Below are positions 20,120 to 29,375 of a stretch of DNA of 51,310 nt, piece by piece. The stretch spans positions 1 to 51,310 of the forward strand of contig CAIOKO010000035.1 of NCBI GenBank assembly GCA_903858935.1, in the 5' to 3' direction. This DNA is from an uncultured Schlesneria sp. Lineage in GTDB: Bacteria; Planctomycetota; Planctomycetia; Planctomycetales; Planctomycetaceae. The translations under genes were made by a program, and so were the position numbers. Within the stretch, counting starts at the first letter, position 1. Each line of letters opens with the position of its first letter. Under the pieces are notes generated by a model that was given only the letters and a program-made list of their open reading frames with translations, was not told the DNA's origin and searched no databases.

Positions 20120-21856
20120 ATGGTCCAGCTCGGCCGATTGACTGCTGGTAAGAATTTTTTTGGTCGGTTATTCACCCTCGGTGGTTGTTTGATTGCCTTG
20201 GCGTCAGCGACGATGGGGGCCGAATCGGCTGTCACAGTGGCGCGATCGCAGCAAGTCGCCGACCATTTGAGCTCCGGCGAATTTGGTCCTGCGATGGTCG
20301 AAGCGCTGGCCGCCCCGAGTCCGGACGAGCGATCGACGTTATTGAAACAAGTTGCAACGGCTCAACAGGCTGCCGGCGAGACAGAAGCCGCTGCCGGGAC
20401 ACTTCGGCGAATTCCCCGCAACATGAAGCGAGCGGCTGAGCCAGGTATCTTGCGTGGTGGTGCGCAAGCAGACTTTATGACACTGATGAATTTGATTCGT
20501 CAGAACACTCCTGGCAAGTGGGAGGATGACGACGGTGAAGGTGGAGCAATGACCCCCTTCCAGACCGGTGTGCGGGTTTCTCCGAATGGGTTACTGCAAC
20601 GGTTAACGAGCGAAGAGCAAAGTGGTCAATTAACTTCAGTGGGGGTTCAAGCCCGCAAGGCGGATCTCAACGACGACGTTTCTCGCACCAGCGAATTGCG
20701 AATGGTTTCGCTGACAAGACTTGAACGGTCGGTTGCTCGTCGCATCGAAGAGGGATTGCCCGTTCCCGAAACAATGGCACAACTCGCCGGCTTGGCTCAG
20801 GTCAAATACGTATTTGCTATCCCGGAAACAAATGAAATTGTCATTGCTGGCCCAGCTCATGCCTGGCAATACAATGATCAAGGTCAGCCCGTGTCATCGG
20901 TGACGGGACGCCCCACTTTGCAACTCGACGATCTCGTCACAGTCTTGCGAACATTTGCTCGCGGGAATGCAGATTTCGGTTGCTCGATTAACACTCGCGA
21001 TGAAGGAGTGAAAACTCTAAAGGAATTTGTCGAGAAGTCGCAGAACAAAGGACCGATCAGTGATCTGGCCGTCCGTTCGTGGGTCAAACAAATTCAGCAG
21101 AAGTTAGGTCGTCAGGACGTCGTGGTTTGGGGAGTTCCAGGAGAAAGTCGAGTTGCCCGAGTCATCGTTGAGGCTGACTACCGAATGAAGTTAATTGGAA
21201 TCAACAAGATAAATGCTGGCAAAGATATTCCAGGTTATTTCGACTTGCTTCCCGTTGCTCAGCAAAAAATTCAGCCGAATATGGATGCTCTGCGATGGTG
21301 GTTAACTGTCAAATGTGATGCTGTACTTCATAGTGCTGACAAAAACGTCTTCGAAATTCAGGGGTCTTCTGTACTCTGTTTATCGGAAAACCAGCTGGTA
21401 ACAGCCGACGGAAAACATCTCCCGACAGGTCAGTCAGAGCCAACGAACCGTCTATTCGCTCAAAACTTTACTGCCAGCTACTCCAAGCTCGCTCAAAAGG
21501 ATCTGGTCTTCGCAGATGCTCAAAATATCTTCGATATGGCCTTGTGTTCGGCCTTGATCCAGCATGAAGACTTGCGAGGCAAGGCCGGATGGAATATGGG
21601 TGTGTTTGCTCCGAATGGTGCCTACGCTCCCGCCATCTATCCAGTACCGAAAGAAGTTGATTCAGTCGTTAATCATCGTGTCTACCGAGGGCGTGACATT
21701 GTTGTGCAAGCGGCCGGTGGCGTAAGGTGTGACGTCATGTCGCTGGCTAAGGATTCAGCGAAAAACAAGCCGGAAGCCGAGCTGGATAGCCTCTCGACAA
21801 CCGTGAAGGCTCCTCAGCTGTCGGTGGGACGATGGTGGTGGGATTCGGTAAAGTAG
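20120..21856 (+). CDS. Secreted planctomycete protein, DUF1598-like
   Basis: A 578-residue exported protein of a planctomycete-specific family that I recognise as DUF1598-like; function unknown. The N-terminus has a hydrophobic stretch (LFTLGGCLIALASATMGAES) serving as a signal peptide, then a short TPR-like helical segment (about 35-95). The conserved middle contains VKYVFAIPETNEIVIAGPAHAW and GCSINTRDEG, followed by LGRQDVVVWGVP and VIVEADYRMKLIGI. The ATG is preceded by GAGGAA. Codon use matches its neighbours. A hairpin (CGGCTCTGGC...GCCGGAGCCG, about 21880-21905) lies after the stop but without a U tract. Confidence 0.7.
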   Translation: MVQLGRLTAGKNFFGRLFTLGGCLIALASATMGAESAVTVARSQQVADHLSSGEFGPAMVEALAAPSPDERSTLLKQVATAQQAAGETEAAAGTLRRIPRNMKRAAEPGILRGGAQADFMTLMNLIRQNTPGKWEDDDGEGGAMTPFQTGVRVSPNGLLQRLTSEEQSGQLTSVGVQARKADLNDDVSRTSELRMVSLTRLERSVARRIEEGLPVPETMAQLAGLAQVKYVFAIPETNEIVIAGPAHAWQYNDQGQPVSSVTGRPTLQLDDLVTVLRTFARGNADFGCSINTRDEGVKTLKEFVEKSQNKGPISDLAVRSWVKQIQQKLGRQDVVVWGVPGESRVARVIVEADYRMKLIGINKINAGKDIPGYFDLLPVAQQKIQPNMDALRWWLTVKCDAVLHSADKNVFEIQGSSVLCLSENQLVTADGKHLPTGQSEPTNRLFAQNFTASYSKLAQKDLVFADAQNIFDMALCSALIQHEDLRGKAGWNMGVFAPNGAYAPAIYPVPKEVDSVVNHRVYRGRDIVVQAAGGVRCDVMSLAKDSAKNKPEAELDSLSTTVKAPQLSVGRWWWDSVK

Positions 21857-22142
21857 TTGGTCTGCAAGTCGGCTAACACGGCTCTGGCCTCTTAGCCGGA
21901 GCCGCAATGGGGAGCGCGAGCCGCTTTTCAGGCCGCTCCTCATTCGACGCGAGTGACACCGCAGCTCGGCACGAGCCTTGCCCTCACTTTGCCGTAGTTT
22001 TGCGGTACGTGAAGAAACAACACATTAGTACTACGAAACTGAAACTCGTGATGCAGTTGGATTCGAAATCGGACTGTGACTGCAAAGGCGGGCTGGTCTA
22101 GTTCCCATGTTTTAAAGCCTTAATGGAAGACAAGCAACGGCC

Positions 22143-23012
22143 ATGCAAGTCGTGATTACAGCAGTCGGTCCCGATAACCGAGGGCTGGCTGACCCGATCG
22201 TTCATCACGTTACGGATGCCGGCGCGAACATCTACGAAATTCAAATGTATGACCACGACTCGGAGCGGCTATTCGCCATGCTGCTCCGTTTTGACTGGCC
22301 ATCGACTGCGGCGCAGGATATCGCAGAATTGCGTCGCCAAATGAACGAGATTGGCAGGTTAAAAAATCTTTCGATTCGAACCTGGTCGCGTGATGAAGCC
22401 TCACGGCCACCGAGGCTGGCAATTTGTACGACGTATCGTCCAGAACCAGCGCTGGCCCTCTTGCGATCGATCCGGGATAAAAGACTGAATGCGACAACAG
22501 CAGTGATGCTGGGAAATCGCGATAGCTGCCGGGGTGTTGCTGAACAATTTGGCGTCGACTGGCACCTTGTTGGTAATGCGCGCGGCGAGCCTGATAATCA
22601 GCGAATGATTGAATTATTCGACCAGTACCAGGTGGATTATATTGTCCTGGCGCGCTACATGCGAGTTCTTCCTGCCAGTACCTGCTGGCGGTTTGCTGGA
22701 CGAATTATCAATCTTCATCATGGCTTATTGCCACCGTTTCCTGGTTTTCGCCCTTATGAAGACGCCTTCCAGCACCGGATGTTAACTTACGGGGCGACAG
22801 TCCATTTTATCGTTCCCGAACTTGACGCTGGAAATCAGATCATTCATCAAAGCACATTTACCGTCTTTCCCGGTACAACTTTAGAAATGATTAAGCGCCA
22901 GGGAGAAACTGATCACGAACCGAGTTGTCTCGTGGAAGGGATGCGTCGGGTCGTTGACCGGGAGGTTGAGTTGCATTTTCATCGCGTCGTCCGGCGCGAT
23001 CCGGTCAGTTGA
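22143..23012 (+). CDS. purU: Formyltetrahydrofolate deformylase-like protein
   Basis: A 289-residue protein with an N-terminal ACT-like domain (VGPDNRGLADPIVHHVTDAGANI, residues 8-30) and a C-terminal formyltransferase domain. The catalytic triad region is present: N190-L-H-H193 in IINLHHGLLPPFPG and D228 in ELDAGNQI, plus VLARYMRVLP. PurU hydrolyses 10-formyl-THF to formate and THF to balance one-carbon pools. The ACT would be the glycine/methionine sensor in the characterised enzyme. The divergence in the HHxxLP motif (HHGLLPPFPG rather than HHSFLPAFIG) leaves substrate slightly uncertain. It is followed 15-55 bases later by the acetyltransferase gene. Confidence 0.85.
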   Translation: MQVVITAVGPDNRGLADPIVHHVTDAGANIYEIQMYDHDSERLFAMLLRFDWPSTAAQDIAELRRQMNEIGRLKNLSIRTWSRDEASRPPRLAICTTYRPEPALALLRSIRDKRLNATTAVMLGNRDSCRGVAEQFGVDWHLVGNARGEPDNQRMIELFDQYQVDYIVLARYMRVLPASTCWRFAGRIINLHHGLLPPFPGFRPYEDAFQHRMLTYGATVHFIVPELDAGNQIIHQSTFTVFPGTTLEMIKRQGETDHEPSCLVEGMRRVVDREVELHFHRVVRRDPVS

Positions 23013-23066
23013 ATCAGTCTGTTCGTTGTGACAGAATCGCCCCTTTTACCCAGGGGGATGAAACTG

Positions 23067-23507
23067 ATGCCAGGTGACACCAGAGGTATATCAATTCGAT
23101 TGATGGACGCGACCGATCTCGGTCGCGGTTTTCTCGACGCGCTTCGAGCACTCAAGCCGATCGACCTGACGGAACAGCAAGCGATTGACGTTTACCGAGA
23201 TCGGCTGAAATCCAGAATCCGAACGTATGTGGCTGTGATTGATGACCGAATTGCGGGAACCGCATCTGTCTTTATCGAGCCCAAATTTATCAACTCGGGC
23301 GGAGTAGTCGGCCACATCGAGGATGTGGCCGTCCACCCGGGTTTTCAAAAACATGGGATCGGACGCTTGCTCGTCGAGCATCTGCTTGACGTCTGCCGCG
23401 AATTTCATTGCTACAAGGTCATTCTCGATTGCGCCGAAGGGGTGATTCCTTTCTATGAAAAGATCGGATTTCACCGGTGGGAGCGAGCAATGCGAATTGA
23501 TCTATAG
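23067..23507 (+). CDS. GNAT acetyltransferase resembling eukaryotic GNA1
   Basis: A 147-residue GNAT protein. The conserved core GHIEDVAVHPGFQKHGIGRLL gives the acetyl-CoA loop (Q-x2-G-I-G), followed by YKVILDCAEGVIPFYEKIGF. These two blocks match glucosamine-6-phosphate N-acetyltransferase (GNA1) of eukaryotes closely, more than typical bacterial RimI-like proteins. The bacterial UDP-GlcNAc route normally uses GlmU, so the substrate is an open question. The start is taken at 23067 because AGGGGG lies nine bases upstream; ATG 23058 and GTG 23028 are alternatives. The stop converges with the sigma gene 36 bases later. Confidence 0.75.
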   Translation: MPGDTRGISIRLMDATDLGRGFLDALRALKPIDLTEQQAIDVYRDRLKSRIRTYVAVIDDRIAGTASVFIEPKFINSGGVVGHIEDVAVHPGFQKHGIGRLLVEHLLDVCREFHCYKVILDCAEGVIPFYEKIGFHRWERAMRIDL

Positions 23508-23543
23508 CGCAATAATTTCAGCAAATCGGCATTTCGATAAGTA

Positions 23544-25208
23544 TCAGATTCCTGGAACATCAAGGTGCTCTTCTTCGGCAATCTTGCGAAGCTTCTGAAG
23601 GGCACGTGATTCCAGTTGTCGAATCCGTTCTTTTGTAACACCGAGCTTCTGTCCGACCTGTTCGAGTGTTTGAGCAGGCTTTCCGTCTTTCAAGCCGTAA
23701 CGAGAAACAATGATATCGCGCTCGCGAGGATCGAGTTGTGCGAGAATCTGCATCAATGCCTCGTGTTGACGCTGATTGACGATCTCTTCATTCAGTCTTT
23801 CGCTTCGCGGATCAGAGGCCTGATAAAACACTTCGTCATTTCCCGTTCGGAAACGGTCAAGCTGAGTGTATTCAGCAGGGATCGATCTTGCGAAATTCTT
23901 CATGATCGCCCAGCTTGCATAGGTCGAAAACTTGAATCCCCTTGTATAGTCAAATTTCTCGATGGCCCGAATCAGGGAAATATTTCCATCGCTGACCATT
24001 TCAAAGAAATTTGTATTCGGCTTCATGTGCTTTTTGGCGATCGACACCACGAGACGCAGATTGCTGCGAATCAGAAAGTTCTTGACTTCGTTGGCCTGTT
24101 CGAGCATCCGTTCGATGGAATCCAAGTCTTTGGTATTGGGCCGGGAAACATCGATCTGCTTTTGCAGTTGGGCTGCATGAAACATCAGGAAATTCATTTT
24201 GCGAAAATAGTAAAGCTCTTCTTCCTTGGTCAGCAGCGGCACTGAATACAGGCTATTCAAGTACGGTGGTAAACCAGGGGGAGTTTTTGCCGGCGCTGAT
24301 TTCCGTTCAACAACGGGTGGTTGCTGAAGGATTTGTGCCTCGGCGTCAGCGTCACTGAATTCCGGCGCTTCCATATACTCGATTGGCTTTGCCAGCAGGG
24401 ACTCGGCACGTACTTCGGCAACCATGCGATAAATACTGGCTCGAGTACGATCAAATCTCCTGGCGAGCTCATCGACCGAAACACCGTTGCGGAAGCTTCG
24501 ATAGATGTCGAGCTTGTGTTCCTCGGTGATCGTGTTAAGCGCGTTAGGGAACACAGCAGACTCCGGATGATCCTTATCGTGGTTCTTCAGCGTGTAACGA
24601 ACCGTCTCTGGTGAACGGTGAAATTTCTTTGCCAGGCGGTGGCTGATTTCCGTCGGGCAACCACCTGCTTTGGCCAGGCGTCGAGCTCGAAGAATCAGTT
24701 TTTCACGTTCTTCAACGCTGAGCTGGCTGAACTGGGAACCTCGGTCCACATCGTCTGCGTGTCTCGTCACGAATCTCTCGACGGACGATCGCAAGAAGCC
24801 AACACGCTTACGCCCTCCAAAGCGAAACCGTCGGCTGACAAGTCCACGATCGCGCCAGCGAGAAACGGTTTTGGACGAAACGTTGAAACGCTTGCTGACA
24901 TCTTCCACGGTCCAGACTTCTTCCCCTGCATTTTCAGCGGCAATGTCTGCACTGTCAGAAAGATCTTCGACAAAGCAACGCAAGTCATGCACCGCTTCGG
25001 CGCCACTCACGACCAGGTCGGGATACATCTCTCCCCGATAAGTTGTGATCTTTTCACACAACTCCGGGTAACGATAAGTCCCTTTCGGGTTCAGCTCGTC
25101 CAGTAGTCGCTCCGCGCGTGATATTTGCGTCAATTGGACGTCACGTGGCGCGTATTTGATTTGATGATCGCGTAATTGCTTCAATGCAGGATTTCGATAG
25201 CGTTGCAT
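23544..25208 (-). CDS. Sigma-70-type factor with multi-HTH N-terminal extension
   Basis: A 554-residue sigma factor. The C-terminal half has region 1.2 (about 314-340, PPYLNSLYSVPLLTKEEEL), region 2 (375-445, including DGNISLIRAIEKFDYTRGFKFSTYASWAI) and region 4 (485-545, TLEQVGQKLGVTKERIRQLE). Region 3 is very short or missing, since only about 40 residues separate 2 from 4. The N-terminal 300 residues are unusual: an excisionase/MerR-like HTH (98-150, WTVEDVSKRFNVSSKTVSRWRDRGL), a second HTH-like segment (170-210, PTEISHRLAKKFHRSPETVRYTL) and a third (230-268, VSVDELARRFDRTRASIYRMV). The start at 25208 has AGGAGG six bases upstream. Such proteins appear in planctomycetes, but I know of no function. 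Confidence 0.88.
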   Translation of the reverse strand: MQRYRNPALKQLRDHQIKYAPRDVQLTQISRAERLLDELNPKGTYRYPELCEKITTYRGEMYPDLVVSGAEAVHDLRCFVEDLSDSADIAAENAGEEVWTVEDVSKRFNVSSKTVSRWRDRGLVSRRFRFGGRKRVGFLRSSVERFVTRHADDVDRGSQFSQLSVEEREKLILRARRLAKAGGCPTEISHRLAKKFHRSPETVRYTLKNHDKDHPESAVFPNALNTITEEHKLDIYRSFRNGVSVDELARRFDRTRASIYRMVAEVRAESLLAKPIEYMEAPEFSDADAEAQILQQPPVVERKSAPAKTPPGLPPYLNSLYSVPLLTKEEELYYFRKMNFLMFHAAQLQKQIDVSRPNTKDLDSIERMLEQANEVKNFLIRSNLRLVVSIAKKHMKPNTNFFEMVSDGNISLIRAIEKFDYTRGFKFSTYASWAIMKNFARSIPAEYTQLDRFRTGNDEVFYQASDPRSERLNEEIVNQRQHEALMQILAQLDPRERDIIVSRYGLKDGKPAQTLEQVGQKLGVTKERIRQLESRALQKLRKIAEEEHLDVPGI

Positions 25209-25217
25209 GATTTTCCT

Positions 25218-25262
25218 CCTGTCATAAAGGGACAGGTACGAAACACACTTGTCAGTCTGACA
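25218..25262 (-). promoter_or_regulatory. Hairpin and palindrome in the leader of the sigma gene
   Basis: On the minus strand CCTGTC and GACAGG (25218-25236) pair across a seven-base loop, and the second arm overlaps the Shine-Dalgarno sequence GACAGGAGG. A 13-base palindrome TGTCAG-T-CTGACA lies at 25250-25262. The first could mask the ribosome site, and the second could be a DNA operator. Both are short. Confidence 0.4.
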
Positions 25263-25706
25263 GAATGAGCCTGGCCGTTCCAATTGGAGCAAAGCCGATG
25301 CCGTTTGCTTTTGATGTGGTTCAGGAGGCTTTAGCCGTCACATATTAACAATACGTTGAAACCGGACACTTGGATCAAAGAAATGTTCGTGGTGAGTTAT
25401 GAATCGTTAAGTTGTTAATGATAAATGGGTTACGTTGTGTCTGGGTTGCTGCTTAACAGAAATGAAAGAATTGCAAGTGACCTTTCTTGTGGAATGAGGT
25501 TCTGGCACCGTTTTTACGAACTCATCCAAAGCCTTTTCCGGACCGAACCAGCCGTCAAACTCGAACAGACTGCCATAGCCCGCTTGTTCGTCAGTTTGAA
25601 CGAAGAAACGGTGCCGTCGAATGTGACAATGTTGAAGGCTTGCCGCTGACTAACCGAATTCAAGGGATATCTGGATCTCTGATGTTCAAGTCCCACGGAG
25701 GAGTGA
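25263..25706. other. Divergent intergenic region
   Basis: About 440 bases between the sigma gene (minus) and a small membrane protein gene (plus). It is AT-rich near 25340-25430. Short open frames here (for example from 25425) lack ribosome sites and recognisable character. No RNA gene was recognised. Confidence 0.35.
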
Positions 25707-25919
25707 ATGTTCAATTTGTTACAAACTGCAAGCGACGATCAGACCGCGATTGGTTTTTGCGTTCTTGCACTGAGTGTTTCGGCGTTTTTTGTTTTCATCA
25801 GTTTTCACCTGGGACCAGCAGGTCGAAAAATCAGGGAATTGGAACAGAAAAAATCCGAATCGAAAAAAATGCCATCAATTTCAACGGAAACCCATCGTTC
25901 ACGTGACCGGGCTGCGTGA
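25707..25919 (+). CDS. Small single-pass membrane protein
   Basis: A 70-residue protein. After a polar start (MFNLLQTASDDQ) a hydrophobic segment TAIGFCVLALSVSAFFVFISF would span the membrane, followed by a basic, Lys/Glu-rich cytoplasmic tail. GGAGGAGTGA lies directly ahead of the ATG, which strongly supports translation. I do not recognise the family. A longer frame overlapping it in another register (from 25774) encodes the next real gene only from 26089 on. Confidence 0.65.
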   Translation: MFNLLQTASDDQTAIGFCVLALSVSAFFVFISFHLGPAGRKIRELEQKKSESKKMPSISTETHRSRDRAA

Positions 25920-26088
25920 GTTTTCGAAGTATTTTCCCTTCGACACGGTTCATGCTTACCCTGCACTTACAAGTGATTTCGAACAAGGAAATTTGATTTT
26001 GTGCTGGCTGAGGAGGCAAATCCTGTGGCAAGCCGTCGGTGTCGGCGATATTTTCAAGCTGCGTTCGGCACAAAACAGGAGTAATCTC

Positions 26089-26607
26089 ATGCGAAGTTCA
26101 GTACGAGTTTTGACGGCGGGGTGTTTGGTCGCGATCGGATACGTGCTTGGGACGTGTCAGCTTCACCGAGTGGCTTTTGCTCAACCCGAAGAAACCGTTT
26201 CCGATGAAGCGACAAAAAAAATCAATGATGCTCACGACGCCATGAAGAAAGCAGTGGAGCAGTTAAAACTTGAATCACGCTACGAGTCAGCGACAAAAGG
26301 CGTAAATCCCTATTCGGTGTTCGTTGGCGGCATCAATGCCAAAGACGACCTGGAAAGTGGACACGGAGTTGATCCCGATACCTTTGCCGCATTGAATGTG
26401 GCCGTTTACCAATTGAAAAAGAACAATATCAAGGATGAATCTCTGGCGGATTGGGTCGACACGAATCTTCTGGGATACGACAACAATGGACATTTGACGT
26501 ATCGGAACAAAGTCGTACGTATCTATTCGATCTCTCGCCTGCGAAAACTCAATGCTCAACGCATGGTCATTCTGGGTGAAACGAAAGAAGTCAAAAAATC
26601 GAGGTGA
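26089..26607 (+). CDS. Small exported protein of unknown function
   Basis: A 172-residue protein with a signal sequence (SSVRVLTAGCLVAIGYVLGTC followed by ...RVAFAQP). The mature part is mainly helical and charged, with KKINDAHDAMKKAVEQLKLE and a C-terminal VVRIYSISRLRKLNAQRM. The frame is open well upstream, but ATG 26089 is chosen because AGGAG lies eight bases ahead and the signal peptide begins there. A hairpin with arms GATTCA/TGAATC and CCGCC/GGCGG follows the stop, with a weak U tract. No family is recognised. Confidence 0.65.
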   Translation: MRSSVRVLTAGCLVAIGYVLGTCQLHRVAFAQPEETVSDEATKKINDAHDAMKKAVEQLKLESRYESATKGVNPYSVFVGGINAKDDLESGHGVDPDTFAALNVAVYQLKKNNIKDESLADWVDTNLLGYDNNGHLTYRNKVVRIYSISRLRKLNAQRMVILGETKEVKKSR

Positions 26608-26650
26608 TTCATTTCCGCCAGCGACTTCAGGCGGGTGAATCAGCTTTTCG
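26606..26650 (+). terminator. Probable terminator after the small exported protein
   Basis: Arms GATTCA...CCGCC and GGCGG...TGAATC form a two-part stem with a short run of U (CTTTTCG) after it. The weak U run makes it a moderate candidate. It separates this gene from the large VWA gene. Confidence 0.45.
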
Positions 26651-26792
26651 AAAATTCAGTGTAACGAATGAAATTTGTTTTCATTTCGGGCATCCAAACG
26701 GCTAGAATTTTTTTATCAAATCTAACGCGACGTACCAACCAGGAAATCTCCGACTCAGGTGCTAAGCCTGATTCAGACGCGAGGGAAGAAAA

Positions 26793-29375
26793 ATGAACCG
26801 ATCAATCTTCAAGAGACTGTTCCTGGTTCCGGTGATTGCCGCCGGCTTCGTTGGGGGCGAATTACGCGCAGCCGAAAATTCGGTTCCCGCGCCGGTGTTG
26901 AAACATGTCTCAGGCGACGGCAACATTGCTCAGGCTTTGCTGTTTCAATTGCAGCAGGGATCTCTTGGCGTGACATCTCACGACCATTTGGTCTTCGTCG
27001 ATACATCGGCAAGTCAGATCGGTGCACATCGACTTCACGCTTTCACAGTGCTCGAATCGTTACTCAAGTCGCTTCCTGAAACGGACCGCGTGCAGGTTTT
27101 TGCCGTCGACGTTCAGGCTGAACCGTTGATGCCGTCGCTTGCAAGTCCTGCTGGCGATTCAGTCTCTTCAAGCCTTGCGGCGTTAAAGTCGCGGATCCCT
27201 CTTGGTGCCACAAATTTCCAGGCGATTATCCAGGCCGCTCTGCAGTCCGGTGCAGGCAGCCAGAAGTCGATCACGTACATCGGAGATGGGTTGAGTACCG
27301 CTGATCTGTTAGAGTCGAAAGAACTTCGCGGCCTGGTTGCACAATTGCGAAGCCAGAAAACGCCGTTCAACAGCTACGGTGTCGGGCCGCAAATCAACCT
27401 TCAACTGCTTGGTGTAATGGCACATCAAACCGGTGGCTATGTCGATTTCGACAGCCGTAAAGACGTCGGTCGAGATGGGGCAGGACAATCCCAACTAGCG
27501 ATTGACGCAGGGCAAAAACTGGGACGAGCAATCCAGCAACCAGTGTTTTTCCCGTCGCAAGTCACGCTGGCAAACAACGAAGTATCATCGTTGCCGCTGT
27601 TGCCGCTGCGAACCGATCGCGAAACGATCCATATCGTTCGCGGTAACCTTGCCGCCGATGCCCGAGTAGTATTCACAGCTGACAAAGCAGGTGAAACCTT
27701 GGAGTGGCGTCTTTCAGCACCGCTTGAGCAGCCAGGTTCCGCGTTTCTTGCCGCCGTTGCCGATCAGGTCGAAAAAGATCAGGGGTTAAGTAATTCACTT
27801 GCCGGCCGTAGCTTGATGCAGGTTTACCAGGGAAGTTTCATCGATTCGATGGAAGGGGCGTTACAGTACGGCGATCAGCAACTTGCCCGAGGCCAGTTCG
27901 AACAGGCTGCGGAAATTGCTCGTCGAGTTGGTGACGTTGATCCAGGAAATCGAGCTGCAAAATCATTGGCGAACTCGTCCGCAAGGCTTCGAGTCACGCA
28001 AGTTTCGCAAGTGCAGGCCGGGGATATTCCGGCAGCTCCTGAACCAGGCGAGCTTGAAAGCCGCGCAGTGCCAAATGCAAATTCCAGTCTGACTCGAGAT
28101 CAGGATCAAGCGATCCGTGTCAAAACAGAAAAGCTTCGCAACCAGGTCAGTAACGCAATCGACGGTGCCCGGAAGACGGATGATCCTGAGTCCAGTCTGG
28201 CTCAACTCAAACAAGTAGAGAATTCTGTTCGTTCATCGATTGACATTGCTCCAGAAGATCGCCTTCAACTGCAAAAGCGTTTGGAGAGCGAAATTAATCA
28301 GATGAAGAATCTGTCTGATAAACGAGCTCAAGATAAGGTTCACTTTGCTGAAGAGCTTTCTCAATTGGAAGCTCAAAAGCGATTGACTGAACAGCTTCAG
28401 CTGGATGAAGAACGCCTTGAAGGTCTGATTGACCGCGTTCGAGCGTTAATGTCCGAAGGTTTTCATGGACGTGAAGAGGCGTTTGGTGAAGCTCAGAACG
28501 TCGCAGACGTGGCAATCAATCTTCGACCGGGCGAAGGAACTTCGGCTGCGGCTCGTTTTGATTCGGAAGCCGCCCACCAGCTCGCACGTGCTAATCGATT
28601 AAGAGCACGCCGTTCCGATCAATTCCTGGAAGCTCTTTACCAAGTTGAGTTGGCTCATATTCCATTCCCGGACGAGCCTCCGATTCGGTTCCCTAATGCG
28701 GAAGTCTGGAAGGCCTTAACCGAACGGCGAAAAAAATGGGCAACTGTTGATCTTCGTAAAGATAGCCCCAACGAACAACGAATCCAACAAGCCTTGAAAG
28801 ATACGACTGAAGTCCAGTTTACTGATCAGCCTCTGAAAGATGCTCTGGAATATCTCGAAGATCTGCACAAGATCGAAATCTGGATTGACCAGCCCGCCCT
28901 GGCTGACGCTGGGATCAGTACCGATCAACAAGTGAACCTCGTGATGTCAGGTATTACGTTGCGAAGTGCATTGCGTCTGCTGCTCGAGCCTTTACAGCTT
29001 ACGTACGTAATCGAAGACGAAGTGATGAAAATCACGACCCAGGAAAAGGCCGACGAAAAAATGTCGACCCGCGTTTATCCGGTTGCTGACCTGGTAATTC
29101 GCATCCAGTCCGGTGGTGGTGGAATGGGCGGCGGTATGGGTGGTGGAATGGGCGGCGGTATGGGCGGCGGTATGGGTGGTGGTGGTATGGGCGGTGGTAT
29201 GGGTGGTGGTGGTATGGGTATGGGTGGTGGCGGTTTCGGCGGCGGTGGTTTCTTTAATATTCCACCGGAACAGGTCAAACCTAAGGCCAATAATGTTGAT
29301 GCTGCAAACCCTGCTGATGCTCCGAAGCTCGATAATTCAGCCGTTAAGAATCTGAAAAAAAAACGGAACAAGTAG
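26793..29375 (+). CDS. VWA-STN Gly-rich exported protein, N-terminal part of a larger frame
   Basis: 860 residues. A signal peptide (LFLVPVIAAGFVGGELRA) is followed by a von Willebrand A domain with MIDAS D70-T-S-A-S74 and GATNFQAII. A TPR/coiled-coil stretch follows (about 350-620). Next is a secretin/TonB short N-terminal-like (STN) module (672-755, FTDQPLKDALEYLEDLHKIEIWID to VMKITTQ). The tail is a Gly/Met repeat (about 772-822, GGGMGGG units). ATG follows GAGGGAAG. The frame stops at TAG just after nine A. The -1 frame is open from 29348 and continues the same protein in homologues I recall, so this is probably the first two thirds of a roughly 1300-residue protein. An envelope scaffold role is inferred. 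Confidence 0.8.
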   Translation: MNRSIFKRLFLVPVIAAGFVGGELRAAENSVPAPVLKHVSGDGNIAQALLFQLQQGSLGVTSHDHLVFVDTSASQIGAHRLHAFTVLESLLKSLPETDRVQVFAVDVQAEPLMPSLASPAGDSVSSSLAALKSRIPLGATNFQAIIQAALQSGAGSQKSITYIGDGLSTADLLESKELRGLVAQLRSQKTPFNSYGVGPQINLQLLGVMAHQTGGYVDFDSRKDVGRDGAGQSQLAIDAGQKLGRAIQQPVFFPSQVTLANNEVSSLPLLPLRTDRETIHIVRGNLAADARVVFTADKAGETLEWRLSAPLEQPGSAFLAAVADQVEKDQGLSNSLAGRSLMQVYQGSFIDSMEGALQYGDQQLARGQFEQAAEIARRVGDVDPGNRAAKSLANSSARLRVTQVSQVQAGDIPAAPEPGELESRAVPNANSSLTRDQDQAIRVKTEKLRNQVSNAIDGARKTDDPESSLAQLKQVENSVRSSIDIAPEDRLQLQKRLESEINQMKNLSDKRAQDKVHFAEELSQLEAQKRLTEQLQLDEERLEGLIDRVRALMSEGFHGREEAFGEAQNVADVAINLRPGEGTSAAARFDSEAAHQLARANRLRARRSDQFLEALYQVELAHIPFPDEPPIRFPNAEVWKALTERRKKWATVDLRKDSPNEQRIQQALKDTTEVQFTDQPLKDALEYLEDLHKIEIWIDQPALADAGISTDQQVNLVMSGITLRSALRLLLEPLQLTYVIEDEVMKITTQEKADEKMSTRVYPVADLVIRIQSGGGGMGGGMGGGMGGGMGGGMGGGGMGGGMGGGGMGMGGGGFGGGGFFNIPPEQVKPKANNVDAANPADAPKLDNSAVKNLKKKRNK
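29355..29363 (+). other. A9 run, candidate slippage or frameshift site
   Basis: Nine consecutive A form three AAA codons in frame. One extra A in the transcript, or a -1 ribosomal shift at A-AAA-AAA, moves reading into the downstream open frame. A 14-bp perfect hairpin (29423-29456, six-base loop) follows 59 bases later. Confidence 0.6.

Follow-up and report, generated by a model that had tools for sequence, protein, structure and literature searches.

Promoter selection by a sigma factor is normally the task of its regions 2, 3, and 4. How, then, might promoters be chosen by a sigma factor that carries DNA-binding modules of its own ahead of the core? The question is raised by a gene in a 51,310-nt contig of an uncultured Schlesneria sp. 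(the window, meaning the whole stretch analyzed), whose product, P0001, had been described in an initial annotation as a sigma factor with three helix-turn-helix (HTH) segments preceding the core, an architecture that Pfam and AlphaFold bear out. P0001 belongs to the sigma-70 family, with regions 4 (Sigma70_r4, E = 2.5e-24, 85 bits versus a cutoff of 24.1) and 2 (Sigma70_r2, 6.7e-13, 48.7 bits versus 24) both above the curated Pfam cutoffs. The annotated gene boundaries are exact, as start codon, stop codon, and Shine-Dalgarno sequence agree (Table 1). All 80 orthologous loci that were fetched encode an ORF of 553 to 579 aa, so the architecture is no chance product; counts out of 81 given below, including those of invariant residues and charge, are counts of sequences. 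Four features went unmentioned in the initial annotation: the unit formed by residues 1 to 92, a finger resembling that of region 3.2, a changed region 2.4, and the class-wide spread with its tRNA-tuf neighborhood. No description of a triple-HTH planctomycete sigma factor was found in the literature searched, from which subscription journals were mostly absent, and within that literature the combination of three extra N-terminal HTH modules with an altered promoter-reading part is apparently undescribed.

Table 1. Features of the P0001 gene and its upstream region (window coordinates; residues are those of P0001)
Feature	Position	Strand	Basis or remark
Sigma-70-family CDS P0001, 554 aa, N-terminal triple-HTH arm	23544..25208	-	ORF, Pfam, profile and PDB alignments, orthologue set; ATG at 25208 and stop at 23544 read directly
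N-terminal alpha/beta unit, residues 1-92	24933..25208	-	AlphaFold; no family
HTH1, winged, MerR/excisionase (HTH_17, HTH_23) type, residues 96-150	24759..24923	-	Pfam, AlphaFold, weak PDB profile match
HTH2, three-helix unit, residues 160-214	24567..24731	-	AlphaFold; sub-threshold Pfam
HTH3, HTH_11/Mor type, residues 225-275	24384..24536	-	Pfam, AlphaFold
Linker, residues 276-310	24279..24383	-	Short motif resembles one in two core-only paralogues
Sigma region 1.2, residues 311-350	24159..24278	-	Profile and PDB alignments, AlphaFold
Sigma region 2, residues 378-446; W433 A434 I435 M436 K437 N438, A440 R441 invariant	23871..24077	-	Pfam, alignments
Short linker with 3.2-like finger, residues 447-470	23799..23870	-	Aligns with RpoD 'SLDRPVGESED'; most of region 3 missing
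Sigma region 4, residues 483-546; K526 E527 R530 Q531 invariant in 81/81	23571..23762	-	Pfam, alignment
Shine-Dalgarno AGGAGG	25215..25220	-	6 bases 5' of ATG, read directly
Hairpin CCTGTC-7nt-GACAGG, overlapping Shine-Dalgarno	25218..25236	-	z -2.18, 60-nt stretch folded
Inverted repeat TGTCAgtcTGACA (pattern TGTCAnnnTGACA), candidate operator	25250..25262	.	41 bases before start codon

The arm that precedes the sigma core (residues 1 to 275) consists of an unassigned N-terminal domain, for which no Pfam match was found in any of three sequences scanned, and three HTH units. In P0001, HTH_17 and HTH_23 (residues 97 to 150) as well as HTH_11 and Mor (residues 218 to 270) all score above their curated Pfam cutoffs. 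Among 39 orthologous N termini (E ≤ 0.01), HTH_17 and HTH_23 were present in every one, Mor in 36, and HTH_11 in 32. The excisionase-like HTH of the initial annotation is HTH1, the only unit of MerR/excisionase type (HTH_17, 33.0 bits versus a cutoff of 27). Of the two further HTH-like segments listed there, HTH3 is confirmed by the Pfam cutoffs, and HTH2 stands as a three-helix unit of the AlphaFold model with sub-threshold Pfam matches (HTH_38 at 3e-4 to 6e-3 in four of five sequences, none above the cutoff, and no match in the fifth).

The full-length AlphaFold model, built with 56 sequences, has a mean pLDDT of 84.2, and all but two ten-residue blocks within residues 1 to 280 reach 81 to 94 (the exceptions are 71 and 74). 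Its N-terminal elements are an alpha/beta unit (residues 7 to 87), HTH helices (101 to 120) with a wing (126 to 139), and two further helical HTH units (165 to 213 and 229 to 273). Nearly the same elements were obtained when the N-terminal part was modeled alone (pLDDT 87.8), so the structure prediction that the initial annotation had called for returned three HTH folds in both runs. The arrangement of the arm relative to the core is left unset by the full-length model (pTM 0.47). A Foldseek search with the arm alone gave no match at E ≤ 0.001 (best 0.28); the 50 weak matches shown include many DNA-binding proteins of HTH type, several with tandem units (POU, Pax, Tc3), and others that are unrelated. 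In a comparison of the arm profile with the PDB, HTH1 weakly matched chains of 6ama and 6amk (E = 0.008 and 0.011), which we take to be BldC. HTH1 thus resembles the winged HTH of MerR/excisionase/BldC-type regulators, for which we know of no fusion to a sigma core. The recognition helices of the arm carry conserved Arg, Lys, Ser, and Thr residues, many arm residues are invariant, and the net charge of residues 1 to 275 is positive in all 81 sequences (mean, +12.2). The Pfam scores, the three-helix models, the recognition-helix residues, and the charge support the earlier proposal that the extension is built of DNA-binding modules, as predicted from sequence and modeling.

The core, as annotated, keeps regions 2 and 4, which are recognized by Pfam, and region 1.2, which is recognized by profile and PDB alignments; Pfam's own region 1.2 model did not appear in the list for P0001, which showed 25 of the 29 families with E ≤ 10. 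Region 3 had been called nearly missing, and rightly so, since the alignment with one RpoD of the same genome (L001) has a 57-residue gap after P0001 residue 448, opposite L001 residues 382 to 438, that takes 48 of the 77 residues of Pfam region 3 as placed in L001 (391 to 467). Likewise, the 25 listed families do not include PF04539 (region 3), which is found in both RpoDs of this genome (4e-24 and 6e-22). In the remainder of region 3, LDRFRTGNDEVF of P0001 aligns with LDRPVGESEDSYF of RpoD, the 3.2 finger; the AlphaFold pLDDT of this linker is low (residues 443 to 469).

In the E. coli sigma factor, Q437 and T440 read the −12 pair, and W433 and W434 take part in melting. The E. coli numbering presumably matches that of P0001, which would carry the replacements W434A, R436M, Q437K, and T440A: all 81 sequences have WAIMKN.AR at residues 433 to 441, where both RpoDs of the same genome have WWIRQAITR. 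The four invariant region 4 residues (Table 1) are close to the R, E, R, and Q of RpoD. With the region 4 contacts invariant and the region 2.4 motif replaced, the sequences suggest that −35 reading is probably kept in P0001 and −10 reading changed.

Compared with known sigma factors, P0001 is like RpoD/SigA (group 1) in that regions 1.2, 2, and 4 and the 3.2-like finger align, and its best PDB matches are HrdB and SigA. However, group 1 proteins have region 1.1 and a full region 3. The genome encodes two RpoDs besides P0001, and in both of them Pfam regions 1.1, 1.2, 2, 3, and 4 are all present, whereas in P0001 region 1.1 was not found (the 25 families listed out of 29 do not include PF03979), region 3 is largely gone, and there is an N-terminal HTH arm. 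P0001 thus falls outside group 1, and it scores 143.4 bits with the RpoD C-terminal equivalog model TIGR02393, the cutoff being 354. The only sigma factor named in the accessible part of a report concerning essentiality is “the housekeeping sigma factor” (PMC10632474). P0001 is like ECF (group 4) sigma factors in having sigma2 and sigma4 joined by a short linker, and it exceeds the 42.9-bit cutoff of TIGR02937 (113 bits). ECF proteins, however, have only regions 2 and 4, and P0001, with region 1.2 and an arm in addition, is not one of them; it clusters with its own paralogues in a tree built without ECF proteins. A long N-terminal part (profile length, 726) joined to a sigma-70 core is also found in MzaA, the sigma-70-like protein of the MZA anti-phage system (NF041931, PDLC02203), whose profiles match the P0001 core (best stretches, residues 333 to 443 in NCBIfam and 370 to 463 in PADLOC). 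With 154.4 bits versus a cutoff of 800 (NF041931), P0001 is not an MzaA.

A scan of genome contigs gave 406 relatives. The 80 that were listed are 51 to 98% identical, and their titles name planctomycetes (three as Kuenenia) or, in two cases, only a “bacterium.” Within the class Planctomycetia, all 248 genomes searched had a match, 246 of them at E ≤ 1.6e-87; these E-values include the sigma core, not the arm alone, and the 246 comprise five genomes of genus g20 without HTH1 and HTH2 as well as G433, with a best match confined to residues 2 to 215. The two weaker genomes are G463, whose copy of the gene is fragmented and sits at the end of a contig, and G535, assembled into ~1,420 contigs. In nine genomes inspected closely, core-only paralogues reached 1.4e-68 and RpoD ~1e-22. 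The arm profile alone had one single match in the window's genome and matched 116 of 392 genomes of the phylum at E ≤ 0.001, 52 of them from the same family or class and 64 from other classes (6 of these weaker than 1e-7); of the 276 genomes without an arm match, the 20 that were listed are all marked only “same phylum.” By tblastn, the protein was found in 19 of 20 separately fetched loci, 18 of the 20 being from outside the class, with an arm-only match in L154 and L156; the alignment of these far loci drew on a usable sigma ORF from 5 of the 20, the wrong ORF being taken in 4 and none in 11. No copies of the arm were found in plasmids or in viral sequences other than phages. The phylogenetic distribution, also called for in the initial annotation, is therefore near class-wide, and the arm is recognizable in some other classes.

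In genus g20 (L170 to L174), all five genomes lack residues 1 to 228 and keep an HTH3-like stretch and a core with WAILKNF. We built a tree from 32 chosen sequences (11 of the 81 triple-HTH proteins, 3 of the 5 g20 proteins, 4 far ones, 6 paralogues, 7 RpoDs, and 1 other). Triple-HTH proteins, g20 proteins, and paralogues are split from RpoD and one further sigma factor with support of 100/98. Support is weak for many inner branches, and long branches come together, so only this split and the place of g20 are relied on. The three g20 proteins nest inside the triple-HTH group, which makes the absence of HTH1 and HTH2 a secondary loss, and both units are thus not needed everywhere. The window's genome also encodes two core-only paralogues, L021 and L008, which are 40% and 34% identical to P0001 in the core.

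At the L109 locus, the orthologous gene is followed by tRNA-Thr, -Tyr, -Gly, and -Thr, tuf, tRNA-Trp, a short membrane ORF in the secE position, nusG, rplK, and rplA, the protein names being our reading of the ORFs. A same-strand tRNA-Thr(tgt) lies downstream in 30 of the 68 loci with at least 1,300 nt of downstream sequence (35 of all 80), and tuf follows on that strand at a distance of 0.9 to 5.7 kb in 18 of 24 genomes and 10 of 16 genera, among genomes that were picked by hand (ten from two genera). The tuf neighborhood is missing from six genomes (G000, G155, G252, G258, G365, and G389), the window's own included. Of the 20 separately fetched loci, only L159, from the same family, has it, and L143 is too short to tell. 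Lying near the tuf cluster is in itself no evidence of regulation.

In 31 of 35 loci, L109 and L044 among them, a very conserved motif, TTGCn-N17-TATA[T/C]T, lies upstream of tRNA-Thr. It resembles a strong sigma-70 promoter of the ordinary kind. We considered CTTGCA-N17-TATATT as a target promoter of P0001 and dropped this reading: TTGCn-N17-TATA[T/C]T occurs in none of 79 regions upstream of the sigma gene, CTTGC-N18-TATATT is not enriched in 59 genomes (48 matches versus 41 in the control), and in the window's genome the CTTGCA-type promoter with one mismatch gave 4 matches versus 13 for the control. A first, differently spaced CTTGCA-type pattern had no match. With one mismatch allowed, TTGACA-N17-TATAAT gave, in the same genome, 18 matches versus 9 for the control. 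A site resembling the tRNA-tuf promoter (L199:1501, same genome) precedes an ORF that we take to encode ribosomal protein L28. We also set aside Rhodopirellula baltica RB12251, an “RNA polymerase specialized sigma factor” (567 aa, pI 9.4) that looked like the P0001 orthologue and that, in the part of the report available, is listed together with ribosomal protein genes as repressed under heat, cold, and salt (PMC2754498). One RpoD of the window's genome has nearly that length and pI (565 aa, pI 9.39; 555 aa from the first listed start), and the identity of RB12251 as the P0001 orthologue could not be demonstrated.

The explanation that we rank first, with about even confidence, is that P0001 is a lineage-wide, growth-linked alternative sigma factor of the class Planctomycetia whose own DNA-binding arm adds contacts. 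Near-universality and a place beside the tRNA-tuf-nusG-rplKA cluster suggest a core growth-linked role. The arm of three predicted HTH units and one small domain, basic overall, is fused to a core without most of region 3, in which an invariant different set of residues takes the place of those reading or melting the −10 element in RpoD and those reading the −35 element are kept. On this model, region 4 would bind a TTGACA-like −35 element, and the arm, tethered ~35 residues from region 1.2, would bind extra DNA near the promoter. Such contacts may make up for the lost region 3 and the altered −10 reading; promoters would then be chosen by arm site plus −35 element, and the regulon may be tied to growth or the gene expression machinery, not to occasional stress. 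No DNA site, regulon, or contact of the arm was found in this analysis. This first-ranked explanation is also opposed by the absence of tuf in 6 of 24 genomes and of the tRNA in 38 of 68 loci, a tRNA-tuf promoter that looks sigma-70-like and could be read by RpoD, the g20 loss, the two paralogues that keep the core without an arm, and the lack of a strong Foldseek match. A bolder form, which we offer tentatively and regard as rather improbable, makes P0001 an activator and a sigma factor in one protein: the arm would read its own operator and replace region 3 and normal −10 reading, in a second obligatory transcription program of the class that is tied to translation genes and partly controlled by a dedicated RNA leader. 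A conserved, class-wide sigma factor with most of region 3 dropped, its −10-reading residues changed, and three HTH units acquired would offer a natural example of a built-in activator choosing promoters.

Region 1.1 self-inhibits free sigma factors, and the arm sits at its place in RpoD, P0001 showing no region 1.1 and both RpoDs of the genome having one. The arm could fold back on regions 2 and 4, holding free sigma away from DNA until it is released by a partner or by core RNA polymerase. In line with this, the unit of residues 1 to 92 is negatively charged in 79 of 81 sequences and neutral in 2. However, the whole arm is basic in all 81, in contrast to the acidic region 1.1 stretches of the RpoDs (net charges, −10 and −9), which favors extra DNA contacts; the HTH folds and conserved recognition-helix residues point the same way. 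A purely self-inhibitory extension, the alternative that the initial annotation had set against its own proposal, loses ground by charge and fold, and we consider it unlikely.

Alternatively, the protein may have two jobs, the arm serving as an autoregulator or repressor on its own control region and the core as an ordinary alternative sigma factor. The TGTCAnnnTGACA repeat upstream of the start codon has similar counterparts in some Schlesneria loci, and some members of the class have a conserved leader ahead of the gene. Yet the repeats similar to TGTCAgtcTGACA were seen only in close relatives, and TGTCAnnnTGACA as a regulon operator was rejected, its 12 places in the genome versus 3 in the control being too few to claim; the mirror pattern gave 4 versus 4. 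The leader is a 44-nt element 5' of the orthologous gene (e.g., L109:4926-4969, L083:4928-4971, and L097:4919-4962), which a short regular expression detects upstream of the gene in 19 of 80 loci, although some of these matches may be due to chance. Sixteen aligned leaders share an outer stem and an inner GCG/CGC hairpin, together with a bulge rich in purines whose sequence, AGGGAACA, is conserved. The covariation is modest: its score was reached by 2 of 500 shuffles, but the number of pairs changed on both sides by 225 of 500. Some covariation of the stem nevertheless makes an RNA likelier than a protein operator, and we regard the autoregulator as distinctly improbable. In 59 genomes of the class, a covariance model (E ≤ 0.1) matched 8, directly upstream of the sigma gene in 6 and elsewhere in 2; over 54 sources it gave 5 matches, 4 of which are model-building sequences and the fifth of which (L045, E = 0.32) lies elsewhere. 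It found no leader in the window or its genome. Rfam matched neither the leader as a known RNA in 10 loci nor any part of window positions 22000 to 27000. The z score of folded leaders was below −2 in 4 of 8, and visual inspection of some Schlesneria loci showed hairpins akin to that of the window (Table 1).

HTH units are also able to mediate contacts with proteins, and with residues 1 to 92 in no Pfam family, the arm might bind a partner (an activator, a nucleoid protein, or RNA) instead of promoter DNA, as a protein-interaction scaffold; the conserved basic and polar recognition-helix residues argue against this, and we give it little credence. That P0001 is a minor, dispensable sigma factor with an arm drifting without a core role, as the g20 genomes without HTH1 and HTH2 might suggest, is very improbable, given that nearly all class genomes searched carry the gene and that many arm residues are invariant.

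In the window, the sigma gene stands alone. Among the 80 loci, L031, L032, and L041 share both of its flanks and L033 shares one, while ispG alone is a common neighbor in L089 and L104. On one side, a DUF1598 protein (positions 20120 to 21856) adjoins a PurU-like formyltransferase with an ACT domain (22143 to 23012) and a GNAT acetyltransferase (23028 to 23507). On the other, positions 26793 to 29375 encode a VWA-domain protein with a long glycine/methionine repeat tail of the GMGGG type.
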